In this document: piece after piece, positions 28,031 through 37,011 of the stretch
How the letters are laid out: each line of letters begins with the position of its first letter
Numbering within the stretch: the stretch's first letter is position 1
Translations under genes and position numbers: made by a program
Notes under the pieces: generated by a model
Told to the model about the DNA's origin: nothing
Database searches by the model: none
The model's input: only the letters and a program-made list of their open reading frames with translations
Assembly: GCA_024398875.1 (NCBI GenBank)
Contig: JAKSIJ010000014.1
Coordinates: 1 to 64,000 of the forward strand
DNA length: 64,000 bases
From: Fibrobacter sp.
GTDB taxonomy: Bacteria; Fibrobacterota; Fibrobacteria; Fibrobacterales; Fibrobacteraceae
Direction: 5' to 3'

Positions 28031-28807
28031 TCAGGGTTTGCGTCCAATGACGCCGATACTCAACTGGGTCCAATGGGCCCAGGACTTGGACTGGATTGCA
28101 TCCAGCAGGGAATCTTTGAGTTTCTGGTATTCCGTGCCCTGGAATGGATACTTGGGCAACTCCACGCCCACCTTGAAACCGATTTCGCGAAGAATGCGAT
28201 AGAAAAGGTTGGGGCGCATCCAATCGCCGTAGGCATAGATGTTTTCAAAGCCCGCTTCCGTCATGAGCGCCTTGAGCTGCGGCATAGTGAACTGCTTTTC
28301 CCAACCAGCAAACCACTTGTCAAAGGCAATGAGGATATGCTTAATCACTGTGTAAGGGTGCACCGTCTGAGGCACGTCGCAGAGGCAGCAACCGCCATGT
28401 TTGAGAATACGGAAATTTTCCTTGATGAGCGGAAGGGAATCTTTGAAGTGTTCCGCCAAACCCTGATGGAACACCAAGTCAAACGTATTGTCCGGGAACG
28501 GGGACTTGAAGGCATCTCCGCGAATCAAATGCAGATTCTCTGTCAGGTTCTCCCTGCAGCGCAGGCCATCCACAATCTTGAGGCTGTTATCCGCGAAGTC
28601 CAGCACATAGACTTCTGCACCGAGGCGGGCAAGTTCAGCACTGTCGCGGCCCGTACCTGCACCCACTTCCAAAACCTTCAATCCATCCAGTTTGAAATTC
28701 TTCTTGATGGCTTGAAGCACGGAAGGAGAAGAAGGATACACCTTCTTCATGTCATTCTTCTGCTCCCAGAAGCGGTTCCACACGGATTGATCGGGCTCTT
28801 TAATCAT
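28031..28807 (-). CDS. Class I SAM-dependent methyltransferase
   Basis: A 258-residue methyltransferase of the Methyltransf_11/25 type. Motif I is LEVGAGTGRDSAELA; motif II-like EVYVLDFADNS and the later FDLVFHQGLAEHF are typical. The substrate is unknown; the downstream glycosyltransferase and flippase-like genes suggest a glycolipid or glycan precursor. ATG 28807 is preferred to a TTG at 28816. TATATT lies 8 nt upstream on the minus strand, so this may be another nearly leaderless start, although GGGCGG could act as a weak ribosome-binding site. Confidence 0.82.
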   Translation of the reverse strand: MIKEPDQSVWNRFWEQKNDMKKVYPSSPSVLQAIKKNFKLDGLKVLEVGAGTGRDSAELARLGAEVYVLDFADNSLKIVDGLRCRENLTENLHLIRGDAFKSPFPDNTFDLVFHQGLAEHFKDSLPLIKENFRILKHGGCCLCDVPQTVHPYTVIKHILIAFDKWFAGWEKQFTMPQLKALMTEAGFENIYAYGDWMRPNLFYRILREIGFKVGVELPKYPFQGTEYQKLKDSLLDAIQSKSWAHWTQLSIGVIGRKP

Positions 28808-28946
28808 ACCGCCCAAATATATGAAAATGCGGTTTGCGGGTGCCAGTTTTCCCCAAAAACCATAGCTTGAGAAAGGCCTCCCGACGCAGAGTCGTCTTGC
28901 CTAACCCACAAAATTCAAGAACAAACTTCATTCAACGCCGCCAAAT

Positions 28947-29038
28947 TTGTCATCATTTTATTACATTTGTAACGAATTCGCTACACTTTGTCGTAATTTT
29001 ATGACTAACAAGGGCTAAAATGCCATTCAAATTGTCAT
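28947..29038 (+). promoter_or_regulatory. Three TTGTCRT direct repeats upstream of the sigma-54 promoter (possible activator sites)
   Basis: TTGTCAT at 28947, TTGTCGT at 28988 and TTGTCAT at 29032 are each followed closely by a T-rich ATTTT. Spacings are 41 and 44 bp, about four helical turns. A palindromic TTACATTTGTAA lies at 28961-28972. All are upstream of a -24/-12 promoter, where enhancer-binding proteins bind. Confidence 0.4.
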
Positions 29039-29058: not shown

Positions 29059-29075
29059 TTGGCACGCATATTGCT
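29059..29075 (+). promoter_or_regulatory. Sigma-54 (-24/-12) promoter of the sigma factor gene
   Basis: TTGGCACGCATATTGCT matches the sigma-54 consensus TTGGCACG-N4-TTGCW at every fixed position. The invariant GG (29061-29062) and GC (29073-29074) are exactly 10 nt apart. The predicted start is near 29086, giving a leader of about 26 nt with AAGG before the ATG at 29112. Confidence 0.75.
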
Positions 29076-29111
29076 TTTAAAAAAGCGATATTTAATGGGC
29101 AAGGTTTTAAA

Positions 29112-29924
29112 ATGCATATAGATTCAACAGATACCACACTAAAACGCTATCTTGAAGATATTAGACGTACGGCGCCCCTTTCTCGTGAAGAAGAACAGAT
29201 TCTTTTCCAGAAGGCTAAAGAAGGGGATAAAATTGCTCGCAAGAGACTCATCTCTGCCAACATGCGCTTTGTTTTGAAAGTGGCCATCCAGTACCGCGGT
29301 TGCCCCATTCCTCTGCCAGATTTGGTGAGTGAAGGCGCCATGGGCCTGGTCCGTGCCATTGAATCTTTCGAACACACCCGCGGACTCAAGTTCATCAGTT
29401 ACGGCGTGTGGTGGATTAAGGCTTACATTACCCGCGCCATCAACGAGCAGGGAAACCTGATCCGCTTGCCCGCAAACCAGCACCTCCGCGTGCGCAAGGC
29501 TTTGCACGAGCAGTCCCGCGGTAAGGAAATCAACGAAGAAATCCGTGAGCTTATCCAGATTGGTCAGCGTGGCGTTTCCTTCGATAGCCCCTTGAAGGCC
29601 GACTCCAAAGCCACATACGCCGAAGTGCTGCCCGACAGCGGCGCCTCCAACCCGGAAGCCGATTCCGAAATCCAGAGCGTTGAAAGCCTGGCCAAGGAAC
29701 TCATGGACCAGCTCCCTGAAAGAGAAGCAAAGGTCATTTCCGGCATCTTCGGCATCAACCAGGAAGCACCTCAGACCCTTCGCGAAGTGGGCGAATCCAT
29801 GAACATCTCCCACGAACGCGTCCGTCAGTTGCGCGACCAGGCCCTCCGCCGCATCCGCAAGGTGAACAAGACGGAATTCCTGAAGGATAAGAAGGAAGCC
29901 TTCCTCGCCGCTATCAATAAGTAG
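29112..29924 (+). CDS. Sigma-70 family RNA polymerase sigma factor (RpoD/RpoS-like)
   Basis: A 270-residue sigma factor. Region 1.2 (LKRYLEDIRRTAPLSREEE) is followed by region 2 (LISANMRFVLKVA to WWIKAYITRAI), region 3 and region 4 with the helix-turn-helix (TLREVGESMNISHERVRQLRDQALRRIR). It lacks region 1.1 and the non-conserved insert, like short primary sigmas of Bacteroidota and like RpoS-type group 2 sigmas. The sigma-54 promoter argues that it is an alternative (group 2) sigma under RpoN control, not the housekeeping one. It is monocistronic and ends at a strong terminator. Confidence 0.9.
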   Translation: MHIDSTDTTLKRYLEDIRRTAPLSREEEQILFQKAKEGDKIARKRLISANMRFVLKVAIQYRGCPIPLPDLVSEGAMGLVRAIESFEHTRGLKFISYGVWWIKAYITRAINEQGNLIRLPANQHLRVRKALHEQSRGKEINEEIRELIQIGQRGVSFDSPLKADSKATYAEVLPDSGASNPEADSEIQSVESLAKELMDQLPEREAKVISGIFGINQEAPQTLREVGESMNISHERVRQLRDQALRRIRKVNKTEFLKDKKEAFLAAINK

Positions 29925-29950: not shown

Positions 29951-29976
29951 AAGCACCTCACGAGAGGTGCTTTTCT
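29951..29976 (+). terminator. Rho-independent terminator of the sigma factor gene
   Basis: AAGCACCTC and GAGGTGCTT form a 9-bp stem with an ACGA loop, followed by TTCTT. It lies 27 bp past the stop codon. Confidence 0.85.
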
Positions 29977-29979
29977 TAG

Positions 29980-30014: not shown

Positions 30015-33000
30015 TTAGCGTTTCTTTTTGCGGCGAACGCCCCACTTGTCCTTGATTTCTTCCTCGATCTTCTTCTTTTCGTAGCGGACCACCATGCGGA
30101 ACTGCACCATATAGACGCCCGTTCCCACAAAGCGGCCATTGTGGTCCTTGAAGTTCCAGTTCACGAACACCTTCTGGTCGGAATTCAAGCAGTTTCCGCC
30201 AAACTTGGGGCTGTTGCAAGGTACTTCAATCAAAGTGTCATTCACATACTGACCCAAATGATCATAGTAGTTCACCACGAAGGAGATGAATACCTTTTCG
30301 GGGTCCAAGGAATCGAGAACAGAGGGATCCACAGAACCGTCTGCAGAAATCTGAGCACGGTCCAGAAGCTGTGGCACAAAGCGCTCGCCCAATTGCACCA
30401 ACTGCCCCAGGGCACCCTCCTTTTCCATATCCTCCTTCGTTGTAGAACTTGGCATATAGCGGAGGTTCACTGAACTCAAGGTCTGGAGCACTTCGTCATC
30501 GGAATCATACGTACCCATGGTGGTGTTTTCCACCAGATGGTTCAGAAGGCCGCCAATGACCACAGGCTGTGGATTTTCACCCATGATGTTGCCGTAGTTG
30601 TCCTGGATGGAGCCATTGGATCCGCGAACCACCAGCAGGGAGTCTCCCGGCAGAATTGTGGTGGCGCTGCCATCGATAATGAGCTTAGCCGACTTGCCAT
30701 CGGTAGACCATTCAATCTTTTTCGGCATCAAGTCCAAGGTATCCTTACCGTGGATGCACTTGAAGAAGTCCTTGCCCTCCAGTTTCTGATACTTGACGGG
30801 TTCAGAGAACGCCAGCTCCAAGGTATCCGCCTTCTTGCCATAATTCAGGGTGGCGCCCAAAACAACCGGAGCCATCTTATCCACCAAAGCGGCGGCGTCT
30901 TCGGTCACAAAGCTTTCGCCAAACACGCTGTAGTAGGTGAAGACCGTAGCCGGAGAAAGGGTTTCGCTGATTCCGGTAACTCCCTTCGCCAAAGTCGTCA
31001 CTGCATGGACATTCCAAAGAACCCGGGTTGAATCCTTCGGATCCAGTTTGAAGTCAGAGGGCTGGGCCTGCATCTGGATAGCCAAACCGCGACTGGTGTA
31101 CCAGGGGAATGTGGCGTAAATCTGAGAAAGATCATTCGCCGTCAACGGCTTCTCAAACTGAAGCACTACCTGATCCAATACACCATTCTTATCCAAATCC
31201 CAATATTCCGCAGTCTTCACAACAGGCAAGCGATCCACTACGGTAACGGTCACCTGACGGTCATATTCATCGGAAGTAATGTAAGGCATGCTCCGGAAGG
31301 TAGTCATAGGATAGAGGGACACACTATCCTTGTTATCACCCTTCAATCCAAGGCCCTTGCCTTCGAAAATGACAATATTCTTGGATGGGAGATAGGCCTT
31401 CTTCACCTGACCCAAGTTGAAACCTTCTTCATTCAGCAGCACCAATAACTCCGGAGTGCGGATATCGTATGGAATCAAATCCACATTGAATTCCACAAAC
31501 AGGGAGTCCATGCCCTTGCTGTTGCGGATGGCATAAGCATTCTTGATGATACTGCTACCAAATTCAACAAGGCTTGCTTCCTTATTGTAGCGATGGCCGC
31601 CAACCTTTTCTTCATAGGTCACCTTGACCTTGGCACCTTCAGGAACCTTGCCGGAAGCAGGAAGGCCACTCAATCCCTTGACACTGACGGAAACGCGAGT
31701 GCGGTCGGAACTCAGCGTGGGAGTTGCTGTCGCCTTGATAGTCTTTCCGTTGATTTCAAGCGTTACGGCAACAGGCTTCAAGTCCTCGCCCAGAGCTTCT
31801 TCCAATTGGACTTCCACATAATCCAGTTTTCCATCGTCATCGCTATCCTTGATGTAACCCATCTTGGAATCCGGAACAGGATCGTAGAAATTGATGTTGT
31901 CAATGATGACACCGTCTCCACCGCCGGGAGGCGCAATTTTGATGGAACCATTGCGAACCGCGTCTGTTGCAGTCACATAGATGGTAGCGCTACCATCAGA
32001 ATTCACCTGGAGTTTGCCGGCCTTGTCTGGATTTTTAGGATCCACGACAACGACGTTTTCCGTGGCTTCGAACAGTAACGTAGTCACGCTATCGCCAAAA
32101 TACTGTTTGACCTTTTCCTTATCCAAAGTAACAGCTACAACCTGACCCACCTTTGCAGAATCCAGGTTAGAATTACGCCAGAGATCTAGTTTGCTTCCCT
32201 TCGGATTGTCGCTAATGAGATACGTCTGTTCTCCTATGACAACCTTGCCCGGGCCAGACCCGCTAGAAGTGGGAATCAAGATATAAGATTCCTTGACGAT
32301 GGAATCACCCTTATCGTAGCTTTCCTCTCTCGTGTAGAAGGAAATGACATCATCGTCGTCATCTTCGTCATCTTCAAAGCCCGCATAGTTATTGCTGGAA
32401 CTGGATTCGTCATCGTCATCCTCCATAGAACCGGTGTTGTCGCTAGAAGAGGATTCCTGATGAGAACCGGAGCTGCCCGCAGGAGAACTGCTACTACCGG
32501 TATTAATGGAAGAACTGCTACCTGGAGTTTCGCTGCTACCTGGAGTTTCACTGCTGCTCGGATTGACTGCAGAACTGCTGCCCGGTTTTTCACTGCCGGA
32601 ACTACCCGCAAGAGAACTACTGCTTACCGGATTCGAGCTAGAACTTTCACCGGGAACAACACTGCTTGAACTTGGATTCGAGCCAGAACTTTCCACAGGA
32701 ACGCTGCTAGAACTAGAATTCGTGCCAGAACTGTAAACGGGAGGAATTCCACTGCTAGAACTAATCGTGGCACTGGATTCGGGTTTAACGGAACTACTCA
32801 ATGGAGCAGCACTGCTACTGGAATTCTTAGAACTACTAGATTCCACATATTGTGCATCAGAAGAAAGGCGAATCACAGAACTAGAGGAAATCTTTGAAGG
32901 CGTATTAGCACCCTGACGAACGGCATCCTCAATATCCAGGGGAGCAAGGTCATCCAGGTAATTGTCCACCCACTGCATGTGAATCAATACGTTGTTGTCG

Positions 33001-34169
33001 ATTTTTTTATCCGCATTCGCGGCGTAGTCTACAAAAATGATATGTCCCGTTTGACAGGCCACAAACAAATGCCCCTTTCCATCCACAGTTCCCTGATCCA
33101 AACGATAGCCCACGCCACTGGTTCTAGGGCCTTTCAAGTTCGCTTTGGATTCAACAAAAAAGACCTTACGCAAATCAATTTCAGCAATGATTTTCGCCTT
33201 CATGGTACCGCCCTCAAGATAGGGCTTGATTTGTACAATCTTGGAGCCTCCAAATACAAAGATTGTTTCGGAATAGGGGTCGTACGTTCCACCATGAGCC
33301 CCTTCCAGGGAGTCAAGCAAAGTGACAGTGCCCAGCTTGGTAACCACAGTATCGCCCATGTGGCCCACATATTTTACCGAATCTGCGGGAGTTGCGATGA
33401 TTTTCTTTTCTAGAGTATCGCGGATATATCCGAAATATGCCTTGGCTCTATTCATGTTTGCATTATTGGAGCTACACAGAGCACCCGTAGAAAGAGACGC
33501 TTCACATCCGCCGCCAATGTAATCAGAATAAGTGAAAAACGCATGACCCTGGCCATCCCATATAATAGTGGACATAGGCTTGCTGTTATTTCCTGTATGC
33601 TTTCCGTCTTGAGCCTGGACTTGAACGGTATACCCCGTGTTTCCAATACCATCCTGGTTTGTTGTCGAATATAGAGGATAGCGAACCGGAGGACCGGGCA
33701 TATTCGTAGCCCACACGTACTTTTTATTGTAGTCCATCATCAAGTGCCAATAGCCACCCGTACTGGCAGCAACCGTCTTTCGCATACACCCGGTTTGTCT
33801 CTTTCCACGCTCCGTATTTTTCTTGATCTTATAGATTCCCTTACCTTGGGCGGCTATCAGCAAATCTCCATCAGGATGGTGAGCAATACCATCGGCCCCC
33901 TGAATAGAAGCAGAACCGCAGATAGTATCCTTGTTCAAGAACTCCATCTGCCCCGAACCATTATAATGATAATCCACGCTTTTTACGCGCAGCCCATCAG
34001 ATCCACCATAAAGCGTGTAATACAGAGTTGCCATAGTTTCATCTTGAGCTTTAATATCTCCTATCTGGGTAACCCAAATACCCCTAGAAAGATTCACTAC
34101 GGTATCCTGCGCAGCCCATGCTGTTGCAGCATAAGCCATAATTATAAAGATTTTGACCAACGTTTTCAT
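30015..34169 (-). CDS. Large secreted protein with Ser-rich and Asp-rich linker and Ig-like repeats
   Basis: A 1384-residue protein with a signal peptide (MKTLVKIFIIMAYAATAWAA). The first 420 residues contain YWTD/NHL-like propeller segments (DGIAHHPDGDLLIAAQGKG). A linker of about 180 residues (DNA about 32340-32880) is mostly Ser with Gly, Pro and Glu, then turns acidic (MEDDDDESSSS, DDEDDDDDV). The C-terminal half holds Ig-like units with Ca-site motifs such as KDSDDDGKLDYVEV and DLDKNGVLD. The last 100 residues (VNWNFKDHNGRFVGTGVYMVQF) look like a FlgD/CHU-type Ig-like domain, with a very basic end. GAGGATG precedes the ATG. Probably cell-surface; function unknown. It follows its paralogue by 33 bp. 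Confidence 0.75.
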   Translation of the reverse strand: MKTLVKIFIIMAYAATAWAAQDTVVNLSRGIWVTQIGDIKAQDETMATLYYTLYGGSDGLRVKSVDYHYNGSGQMEFLNKDTICGSASIQGADGIAHHPDGDLLIAAQGKGIYKIKKNTERGKRQTGCMRKTVAASTGGYWHLMMDYNKKYVWATNMPGPPVRYPLYSTTNQDGIGNTGYTVQVQAQDGKHTGNNSKPMSTIIWDGQGHAFFTYSDYIGGGCEASLSTGALCSSNNANMNRAKAYFGYIRDTLEKKIIATPADSVKYVGHMGDTVVTKLGTVTLLDSLEGAHGGTYDPYSETIFVFGGSKIVQIKPYLEGGTMKAKIIAEIDLRKVFFVESKANLKGPRTSGVGYRLDQGTVDGKGHLFVACQTGHIIFVDYAANADKKIDNNVLIHMQWVDNYLDDLAPLDIEDAVRQGANTPSKISSSSVIRLSSDAQYVESSSSKNSSSSAAPLSSSVKPESSATISSSSGIPPVYSSGTNSSSSSVPVESSGSNPSSSSVVPGESSSSNPVSSSSLAGSSGSEKPGSSSAVNPSSSETPGSSETPGSSSSINTGSSSSPAGSSGSHQESSSSDNTGSMEDDDDESSSSNNYAGFEDDEDDDDDVISFYTREESYDKGDSIVKESYILIPTSSGSGPGKVVIGEQTYLISDNPKGSKLDLWRNSNLDSAKVGQVVAVTLDKEKVKQYFGDSVTTLLFEATENVVVVDPKNPDKAGKLQVNSDGSATIYVTATDAVRNGSIKIAPPGGGDGVIIDNINFYDPVPDSKMGYIKDSDDDGKLDYVEVQLEEALGEDLKPVAVTLEINGKTIKATATPTLSSDRTRVSVSVKGLSGLPASGKVPEGAKVKVTYEEKVGGHRYNKEASLVEFGSSIIKNAYAIRNSKGMDSLFVEFNVDLIPYDIRTPELLVLLNEEGFNLGQVKKAYLPSKNIVIFEGKGLGLKGDNKDSVSLYPMTTFRSMPYITSDEYDRQVTVTVVDRLPVVKTAEYWDLDKNGVLDQVVLQFEKPLTANDLSQIYATFPWYTSRGLAIQMQAQPSDFKLDPKDSTRVLWNVHAVTTLAKGVTGISETLSPATVFTYYSVFGESFVTEDAAALVDKMAPVVLGATLNYGKKADTLELAFSEPVKYQKLEGKDFFKCIHGKDTLDLMPKKIEWSTDGKSAKLIIDGSATTILPGDSLLVVRGSNGSIQDNYGNIMGENPQPVVIGGLLNHLVENTTMGTYDSDDEVLQTLSSVNLRYMPSSTTKEDMEKEGALGQLVQLGERFVPQLLDRAQISADGSVDPSVLDSLDPEKVFISFVVNYYDHLGQYVNDTLIEVPCNSPKFGGNCLNSDQKVFVNWNFKDHNGRFVGTGVYMVQFRMVVRYEKKKIEEEIKDKWGVRRKKKR

Positions 34170-34202: not shown

Positions 34203-36974
34203 TCAGTCCTTGCCGGCCCTGAGCCCCCACTTGTAAAGCCTTTCCACCTTAAATGCCTTTCCATCGGTCCCCGTGCCCGAAGCGCCGAACACCTTCACCT
34301 TGAATTGCGCAATATAGACCCCCACCCCAGCCTTGCGACCGTCGTCGGAACGCATATTCCAGCGAAGGTAGAGCATTCGCGCATTCTCAAAACAGTTCCC
34401 ATTGAAAGCCTCATCGCTGCAGCGAACCGTTCCCTTATCGCCAGCCACATAGGCCCCGAGGCTAGTAAACACATTCAATTCCCACGTAAGGCCCACCTCA
34501 TCCAGATTCATGGTGGTAGCGCCCGAGGAATCCTTGTCCAGAGCAGTAGCAAAACTGATATCCATCAAAACGCCGAGGCCCTGCTCCACCTCTTTTGCGG
34601 AGCGGTAGAACTCCGGAGATACTGCAATATCATCCGGAAGCGTTTCAGCCTGCTTCAGGGTGGCCATGGGCGTAGTTTCCATCAGCACGCGGGGGTTGCC
34701 CTCCACCACTGTTTCTGGAGCCTTGCCCGAAATGCCGTTGCCGTTCATGTCCGCAAATTTTGCGGCGGTATTGTCAAAGCGAATGGAGTCCGATGGATTC
34801 AAACGCTTGGCCAGTTTCACGCCATTTTCCAAATGAATCTTCACACTGCGGGAACCCTCGTCCCACTCCACCGAAGTGAAGGAGAGATTCACCCAGTTGC
34901 CATCCACCAGGAAGCTGAAACAATCCGCCAGTTCCGCAGTAGAAATGGATTCCCTATCGATGGGCTCCGAGAAGGTAAGCGTAAGGACGTCCGCCTCCAT
35001 GCGCTGGAAGGATTCCGGCTGGAGGAAGGTTTTTGCGATAATCGGAGACATGCGGTCATTCATGGTGTAGTTTTCCGTAACCGTAGAATCCTTGCCATCA
35101 ATCTGAATCTTCTTGGAAACCTTGGCATAACCATACTTGAGGCTGTCCGCCATTCCCACCGTATCGATGGAGGTGAGCATCCGCTTCACATCGTACTTCG
35201 TCGCATTCACATTAATCTGGACAATCTTTCCATCTTCCGAGAGGTTCACCACCTTCGGGTCAGAAAGGTCTGGAGTAATCTCTACCACCTGGCCCGCATT
35301 GTCCGACCAATACAACGTAATCTCCATATTTTCCAAATCATCTTCCGTGATGGCGTTTTCAAAAGCCACCGTGGCGCTATCCATGCGGCCATCGCCATCC
35401 TTATCAAAGAATCCGTTCTTGTCGTTATCCACATAGTTGAGGCCAGAGTCCATGATGGTGGCGGGACTATTCTTCCCTGTCTTGTTTCCATCGGCTGCCT
35501 TAATCAAACCATCGGGGCATTCACCTGCAGCACAGGTGGTGGCGATTCCAATGTCATCGCCAATAGATACAGAACCTGCAGGAACGACGAACGTCCATAC
35601 TGCACCATCCTTCTCAACAGCCTTCATAGAGAAGGGGTTCTTGTTCAAGACAAAACCAGCACCCTCAGTCCATGCTTCATCGACCGCCTTGTTAAAATGG
35701 AGAATCAAGGTATCGAGAGCCTTGCCCTCCGTAGCCTTCGTCTTGACGAGGGTCGCCGTCATAATGACAGGACCAATGCGGTCAATCAACTTCGTATCCA
35801 AGGTAGCGTTCACGCCCGAGGCCTCGGACTTCACATCCACCTTGATGGAACCCTTCCCTATACCTTCGGGCAAAGAGGATTGCACTCCGGAAAATTCCGC
35901 CGCGCCCTTGTTGTCGTTGGGGTCGATGTAATTGGAGGAGAGTCCCTTGTAATCGCCGTCATTCGGCCAGTTAATTTGATAGTTGTCGAAAACTATCTGC
36001 TGGAGTTTGCCGTTGAAATACGCCTTGATACTATCGCCAACACCATCGCCGTTGGCATCGAAGATGAAGGCACTATCCAAGGTGGGCAAGCCCTCGTTCA
36101 CAAAGTCCAACTTGCCAGGGAACCGTTCCTTGACAATGAAATCCACATCGCCGTTGGCCTGAATATCAATAAAACTGTTGGTGGAGAAATCAACCCCAGA
36201 TACCGCCTTCTTTGCCGAGACATAGAAACTGGTTTTACCCTGATTCAGAGAATCCAAATAGCCCACAGGCATCGTCTCGCCGGCATCGGCATAAACAAAT
36301 GTCATAGGGTCCCCCGCTTCATTGAAGAACTCCAAGTCTTCGTTGCCTGGCTTGGTCGTGATGTAGAAGAGGGAGGCATTCCCCGTAAGGGAACTATCTC
36401 GCCGCCCCATGGCCGGGCCAATAGGAATCACCGCCTGCACATAGACTTGAACCTTGTCATCTACCTTCAACTGTAGATTCCAGTTGTCATCAATGACTTG
36501 TGTATAGTTGGAATCTGCATAATAGTGAATCTCTGGAGCATAGAAGTTGGCCACCTTGCCAATGCTTGGAACTGCAGTAGGCGTAGTGCGCACACCAAGA
36601 GGCACGTTATACTTGGGGTAAATTCCCTTCAATTTCAGTTTCACAAGGCCTGTTTCTGAATCCATCACCTCTTCACCGTCAACAATACGCTTACCTGAGC
36701 TCGCCAACGTAAAAGACAAACTGTCAGATGCCGCATCCGGGGCATAGACATAGAACGGCACATTAGGCTGCGCATAGGCAGAATTATTCGCATGCTCGGG
36801 GACATCAACCACAAAGACATTCGTATTCGTCGTCTTCCCGAGCACATAATAGGAGCAAATGGGTGTCGTTGGATTTTTCAAATGGCAATCATAGTCACTA
36901 GCGAAAACACCTGTTGCAAAAGACAACAGCATTAGCCCAAACAAGGGTAACGTCTTTAGTGTTTTCACCCACAT
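34203..36974 (-). CDS. Large secreted protein with Ig-like and Ca-binding repeats, paralogue of the downstream gene
   Basis: A 923-residue protein with a signal peptide (KTLPLFGLMLLSFATGVFA). Repeats of about 150-190 residues combine an Ig-like strand set (LTLTFSEPIDRE, LILHFNKAVDE) with DxDxDG motifs (DANGDGVGDSIK, DKDGDGRMDSATV) that could bind calcium. The C-terminus (LYLRWNMRSDDGRKAGVGVYIAQFKVKV) matches the same module of the downstream protein. It lacks the serine-rich linker. ATG 36974 is chosen: GAGG precedes it, and upstream codons give no signal peptide. The two genes form a minus-strand operon. Function unknown, probably surface or matrix. Confidence 0.72.
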   Translation of the reverse strand: MWVKTLKTLPLFGLMLLSFATGVFASDYDCHLKNPTTPICSYYVLGKTTNTNVFVVDVPEHANNSAYAQPNVPFYVYAPDAASDSLSFTLASSGKRIVDGEEVMDSETGLVKLKLKGIYPKYNVPLGVRTTPTAVPSIGKVANFYAPEIHYYADSNYTQVIDDNWNLQLKVDDKVQVYVQAVIPIGPAMGRRDSSLTGNASLFYITTKPGNEDLEFFNEAGDPMTFVYADAGETMPVGYLDSLNQGKTSFYVSAKKAVSGVDFSTNSFIDIQANGDVDFIVKERFPGKLDFVNEGLPTLDSAFIFDANGDGVGDSIKAYFNGKLQQIVFDNYQINWPNDGDYKGLSSNYIDPNDNKGAAEFSGVQSSLPEGIGKGSIKVDVKSEASGVNATLDTKLIDRIGPVIMTATLVKTKATEGKALDTLILHFNKAVDEAWTEGAGFVLNKNPFSMKAVEKDGAVWTFVVPAGSVSIGDDIGIATTCAAGECPDGLIKAADGNKTGKNSPATIMDSGLNYVDNDKNGFFDKDGDGRMDSATVAFENAITEDDLENMEITLYWSDNAGQVVEITPDLSDPKVVNLSEDGKIVQINVNATKYDVKRMLTSIDTVGMADSLKYGYAKVSKKIQIDGKDSTVTENYTMNDRMSPIIAKTFLQPESFQRMEADVLTLTFSEPIDRESISTAELADCFSFLVDGNWVNLSFTSVEWDEGSRSVKIHLENGVKLAKRLNPSDSIRFDNTAAKFADMNGNGISGKAPETVVEGNPRVLMETTPMATLKQAETLPDDIAVSPEFYRSAKEVEQGLGVLMDISFATALDKDSSGATTMNLDEVGLTWELNVFTSLGAYVAGDKGTVRCSDEAFNGNCFENARMLYLRWNMRSDDGRKAGVGVYIAQFKVKVFGASGTGTDGKAFKVERLYKWGLRAGKD

Positions 36975-36995
36975 AATAACCTCACACACAAACAC

Positions 36996-37011
36996 ATTGC
37001 CGCGGGGCAAT
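36996..37011. repeat. Hairpin in the leader of the 923-residue secreted protein gene
   Basis: ATTGCC-GCGG-GGCAAT, a perfect 6-bp stem 22 bp upstream of the ATG at 36974. It would form in the mRNA leader. Confidence 0.45.

Follow-up and report, generated by a model that had tools for sequence, protein, structure and literature searches.

A conserved sigma-54 promoter precedes a Fibrobacteria-specific sigma factor gene in Fibrobacter: a candidate two-step sigma cascade

In Fibrobacter sp., a gene for a sigma-70-family sigma factor, here called D, is preceded by a strongly conserved sigma-54 promoter element, and we consider it highly probable that RpoN transcribes D through this −24/−12 element, that an activator of the L075 type acts on upstream palindromes, and that D in turn redirects RNA polymerase. 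The circuit that we propose from sequence comparison would run as follows: (i) the RpoN (sigma-54) holoenzyme would sit closed on the −24/−12 element at 29060-29075; (ii) an enhancer-binding ATPase, most likely L075, would bind GTCAT-N6-ATGAC palindromes 80 to 130 bp upstream; (iii) the bound ATPase would open the RpoN holoenzyme complex at the D promoter; and (iv) the D protein would steer RNA polymerase to promoters of its own, expected to be noncanonical at the −12/−35 positions that its altered residues read.

Locus and promoter element

Gene D occupies positions 29112-29924 (+ strand) of the window, by which we mean the whole 64,000-nucleotide stretch of DNA that was analyzed; the genome from which it comes is 2.78 Mb in size and 99.3% complete. 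The product, of 270 amino acids, comprises regions 1.2 to 4 (Pfam domains Sigma70_r1_2, r2, r3, and r4), and region 1.1 is absent. The 5' neighbor is a divergent methyltransferase-like open reading frame (28031-28816), and D is followed by a terminator-like hairpin with a T-rich tail (AAGCACCTC-ACGA-GAGGTGCTT, 29951-29977, + strand; found by inspection and unscored) and then by a convergent gene, so that D looks monocistronic. The convergent open reading frame (30015-34169, − strand) encodes 1,384 amino acids with a serine-rich stretch and adjoins another long open reading frame at 34203-37010. D loci that are identical, or 89 to 96% identical, occur in Fibrobacter metagenome-assembled genomes from horse feces and ruminants.

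The promoter element, TGGCACGCATATTGCT, lies at 29060-29075 (+ strand), with GG at 29061-62 and GC at 29073-74, 10 bases apart; the match at all fixed bases and the GG-N10-GC spacing claimed in the first-pass annotation are therefore borne out. It is the sole zero-mismatch instance of TGGCACN5TTGCW in the 64-kb window. Looser sites are noise, as the window contains 27 matches to the −24/−12 pattern with up to two mismatches against 37 expected. The whole genome holds 12 exact sites compared with 3 for a reversed-pattern control. The ATG of D is situated 52 nt past the element, a placement that suits a short leader, as had been proposed: transcription is predicted from sigma-54 geometry to start at about 29086, 12 nt after the C of the −12 element, with CGATATT (29086-29092, + strand) as a conserved initial transcribed sequence, and a Shine-Dalgarno-like AAGG (29101-29104, + strand) is kept in all aligned genus leaders. 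The GATATT just past the predicted start is as well conserved across the genus as the promoter itself.

Conservation of the promoter

In the form TGGCAY-N5-TTGCT, the element is invariant in all 47 distinct D upstream regions of the genus, at a distance of 51 to 55 nt from the ATG and between diverged flanks; the strict element was not produced once in 200 sets of dinucleotide shuffles of these regions. Conservation also extends to more distant relatives: among the D loci of other genera in the family, 14 of 22 carry the element, and seven class relatives (f3 and f4; soil and lake genomes) have it with 8 or 9 of the 10 fixed bases. Going by the reversed-pattern control, a genome should hold some three exact sites at random, which is what could be said for a coincidental match upstream of D; chance is nonetheless refuted by the recurrence in 47 of 47 regions with diverged flanks, as against none in the shuffles, and we give it practically no weight. 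The sigma-54 promoter ahead of D is supported by the exact element, its genus-wide conservation, and the presence of rpoN in the genome.

A different reading is that the −24/−12 promoter is used while a sigma-70-type promoter supplies most of D, in which case sigma-54 would provide a modest boost and no switch. The upstream DNA is AT rich and D persists in genera without the element, both of which are in line with such an arrangement; on the other hand, no invariant upstream block is longer than the −24/−12 element and the start region, and no −10/−35 pair of equal conservation is visible in the genus upstream regions, which makes this arrangement rather unlikely in our judgment.

Control of D by sigma-54, as we propose it for Fibrobacter, is not universal in the class. 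No −24/−12 element was found upstream of D in G150, G146, G123, G122, G120, and G164 or in four Fibrimonas-type genomes (G124, G129, G133, and G135), and rpoN is kept in all of these. Since several lineages carry D and rpoN without the element, D is not sigma-54 dependent everywhere and the wiring is replaceable; the output of the proposed sigma cascade is more conserved than its wiring, as several lineages dropped the promoter and retained D. Co-loss of rpoN with the promoter could not be used as a test, since rpoN is present in all 46 outside-genus genomes tested, as it is in the genome of the window. Several genomes contain a second, more divergent copy of D, mostly without a −24/−12 element (L136, L140, L141, L143, L145, L146, L147, and L148), which suggests duplication with rewiring; in G153, the element is found on both copies.

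Sigma factor complement and identity of D

The rpoN gene that the sigma-54 reading presupposes is present in one copy (locus L001), its product of 569 amino acids matching Sigma54_DBD with an E value of 5e-54. Seven sigma-70-family proteins are encoded in the same genome: four short RpoD/RpoS-like proteins, one divergent protein of 248 amino acids, and two ECF sigma factors. The four short ones are D, A (C1:137104-137949), B (C18:1392), and C (C1:68102-68848, L006). A was found in 25 of 25 class genomes searched, B-type matches in most, and C in a subset, and D orthologs occur throughout the class Fibrobacteria in the genomes searched. Gene C, which only part of the genus carries, is situated about 4 kb away from L074 (G000:C1:63385), the NtrC-like activator, and a histidine kinase.

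The first-pass annotation had described D as a short RpoD/RpoS-like sigma factor lacking region 1.1 and had raised the possibility of a longer RpoD elsewhere in the genome. The domain description stands, and other RpoD/RpoS-like sigma factors (A, B, and C) do exist; they are, however, short as well, so that the lack of region 1.1 does not discriminate, and we rejected it as a mark of an alternative sigma factor. D is also not RpoS: the RpoS profile is its best-scoring one, but the score of 194 bits lies below the cut-off of 378.7 bits, and a tree places SigA and RpoS with A and B, and D apart (long branches; one RpoS included).

It can be asked whether D is instead the primary sigma factor of Fibrobacteria, with the sigma-54 promoter merely one of several. 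Within the family, D is better conserved than either A or B (82 to 96% identity, versus 75 to 94% for A and 57 to 78% for B) and is present in genomes searched across the class, as a primary factor might be. A and B, however, outscore D against solved primary sigma factors (145.7 and 132 bits, respectively, against E. coli RpoD, versus 117 bits for D), they are the proteins that accompany SigA and RpoS in the tree, with the same long branches, and they retain the canonical R-Q of region 2.4 (WW[IV]RQ) that is missing in D. A primary role for D is thus quite improbable, and D is not the only housekeeping candidate, which would have been at odds with the cascade first proposed, A and B being conserved in the class and closer to primary sigma factors.

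The residues that set D apart lie in its DNA-reading regions. In region 2.4, WWIKAYIT (residues 100 to 107; 29409-29432, + strand) has K-A in place of the R-Q of canonical WWIRQ, and D orthologs share WWIKA; in region 4.2, the helix HERVRQ (residues 234 to 239; 29811-29828, + strand) carries H where E. coli has R584. The stretches WWIKAYITR and SHERVRQ are invariant across the class bar one conservative change. In E. coli numbering, we take the changes to correspond to Q437A and R584H. Mutants of E. coli at Q437 and R584 have altered −12 or −35 preference, and from changes at such positions the promoter preference of D is predicted to be distinct from the canonical one. The invariance of these altered residues is an indirect basis from which we infer a separate D regulon, and expression of D would presumably be conditional, as first proposed, even though D is better conserved than its paralogs A and B and persists, together with rpoN, in lineages whose D upstream region no longer has the −24/−12 element. 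As judged from its sequence, D is a Fibrobacteria-specific sigma factor with unusual promoter-reading residues.

Upstream palindromes and other sigma-54 promoters

Two candidate enhancer sites, each with one mismatch to the palindrome GTCAY-N6-RTGAC, precede the promoter of D: GTCATCATTTTATTAC at 28949-28964 and, 41 bp from it, GTCGTAATTTTATGAC at 28990-29005, centered some 88 bp upstream of the predicted start. With up to one mismatch, the palindrome occurs in 35 of the 47 distinct genus upstream regions, compared with 1.9 in shuffles (maximum, 4), and the exact form occurs in 15, compared with 0.07; the other 12 regions have no palindrome at this threshold. Several genus upstream regions carry two copies 41 to 61 bp apart. 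Perfect long palindromes number only five in nine Fibrobacter genomes, three of which are upstream of D, and inspection by eye showed related palindromes in relatives from f3 and f4 (GTCATAAACAATGAC and GTCACGATTTGTGAC). It is likely, given this recurrence, that the GTCAT-N6-ATGAC palindrome is an enhancer.

Exact sigma-54 sites also precede dnaK, groES, hsp20, htpG, and a Clp-type gene in the genome of the window (L046, L048, and L052) and three other Fibrobacter genomes (L091, L094, L095, L102, and L112), the short stretch scanned of the Clp-type gene giving no Pfam hit. In other Fibrobacter genomes, such sites precede gltB, type III glnA, a PII gene, a probable ammonium transporter gene, a spoVG-like gene, and dapF (L101, L104, L107, L108, L110, L111, L093, and L105). 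Exact sites before nitrogen and stress genes indicate that RpoN is in use. The palindrome of D is absent upstream of the chaperone and nitrogen sigma-54 promoters examined: dnaK, groES, and hsp20 have a different one, GTTTC-N5-GAAAC, and the nitrogen genes with exact sites have neither, from which the D palindrome is specific. The differing palindromes make it probable that two or more activators operate, and the chaperone loci suggest a sigma-54 heat shock regulon with its own activator in Fibrobacter; sigma-54 control of chaperones has already been reported for Bacteroidota and Planctomycetota (PMC12316311).

Candidate activator

Four strong sigma-54 activator proteins are encoded in the genome, among which L075 (C13:24438-24926), next to rho-proC, is alone in having canonical GAFTGA together with intact Walker motifs (GESGVGK and IFLDE). 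A tree was built from 73 activators of 17 genomes; its L075 clade (support, 100/98) consists of exactly G000, G046, G004, G136, G145, G144, G147, and G152, all of which are promoter positive, and is absent from G150, G146, G123, G135, and G120, all promoter negative. The clade thus accompanies the promoter in 8 of 8 positive and 0 of 5 negative genomes among 13 from the family and order (P of about 0.0008 if genomes were independent, although they are related). G152, with the promoter and the clade, and G150, with neither, belong to one genus. G134 has no member of the clade, its D upstream region being outside the promoter comparison. In all eight genomes, the L075-clade gene comes after rho and proC (rho was confirmed by Pfam in the genome of the window). 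The N-terminal domain of L075 has no Pfam match, and hhalign against the receiver of L074 gave a probability of only 43%; the acceptor position of this domain is D in five orthologs and N in three. Taken together, motifs and co-occurrence make L075 the probable activator of the D promoter.

The alternative that another activator drives D, either the NtrC-like L074 or the short L076 type, and that the co-occurrence of L075 reflects shared ancestry can be given some tentative credit: only 13 genomes, all related, were compared, and the genomes G160, G162, and G163 of family f4 carry the promoter with no L075-clade activator in the tree, which limits the promoter-activator pairing to Fibrobacteraceae. 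We do not favor L074 or L076, however, since their clades occur in promoter-positive and promoter-negative genomes alike, and the chaperone palindrome points to a separate activator for the chaperones. The fourth protein, L077 (G000:C56:64391-64906), is related to sigma-54 activators and has GAFAGA as well as NE for DE in Walker B; it was rejected as activator of D on these grounds and is probably unable to activate sigma-54.

Relation to known systems

The first-pass annotation named the RpoN-RpoS cascade of Borrelia as the closest known logic, and we agree, a sigma factor gene being under a conserved sigma-54 promoter here too. As in the Rrp2-RpoN-RpoS (sigma-54 to sigma-S) cascade of Borrelia burgdorferi (PMC3037356, PMC4014564, and PMC11109971), a sigma-54 promoter and an enhancer-binding protein, here a candidate, stand ahead of a sigma-70-family sigma factor gene. 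The two differ in several respects: (i) D falls outside RpoS by profile and tree; (ii) D has conserved upstream palindromes and a probable activator confined to promoter-positive genomes of the family; and (iii) the N-terminal domain of this candidate activator appears degenerate and is not clearly a receiver. A broad survey predicts sigma-54 control of COG0568 (sigma-70/sigma-32) genes across phyla, the same link as here, but does not mention Fibrobacter and assigns no enhancer or activator (PMC12316311). We found no description of sigma-54 control in Fibrobacter in the literature searched, where the organism group, the sigma clade, the enhancer, and the candidate activator all appear to be undescribed; the kind of cascade is already known.

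Fibrobacter is among the major degraders of cellulose in the rumen and hindgut, and the analysis yields a testable circuit: a promoter with candidate enhancer sites, a sigma factor as its output, and a specific candidate for the activator. A bolder and unlikely extension is that D, as a class-wide, Fibrobacteria-only sigma factor with nonstandard specificity and a rho-proC-adjacent activator, would be the central two-step growth-state switch of fiber degraders; if so, Fibrobacter could hardly do without sigma-54.

Other sigma factor genes driven by sigma-54 are hrpL of Pseudomonas syringae and fliA of some flagellated bacteria, which follow the same two-step logic as D; their products are of the ECF or flagellar type, whereas D has RpoD/RpoS-type regions 1.2 to 4. 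The short RpoD of Bacteroidota lacks region 1.1, as RpoD-type sigma factors of the wider FCB group normally do, and its nearest counterpart here appears to be A (C1:137104-137949) and not D.
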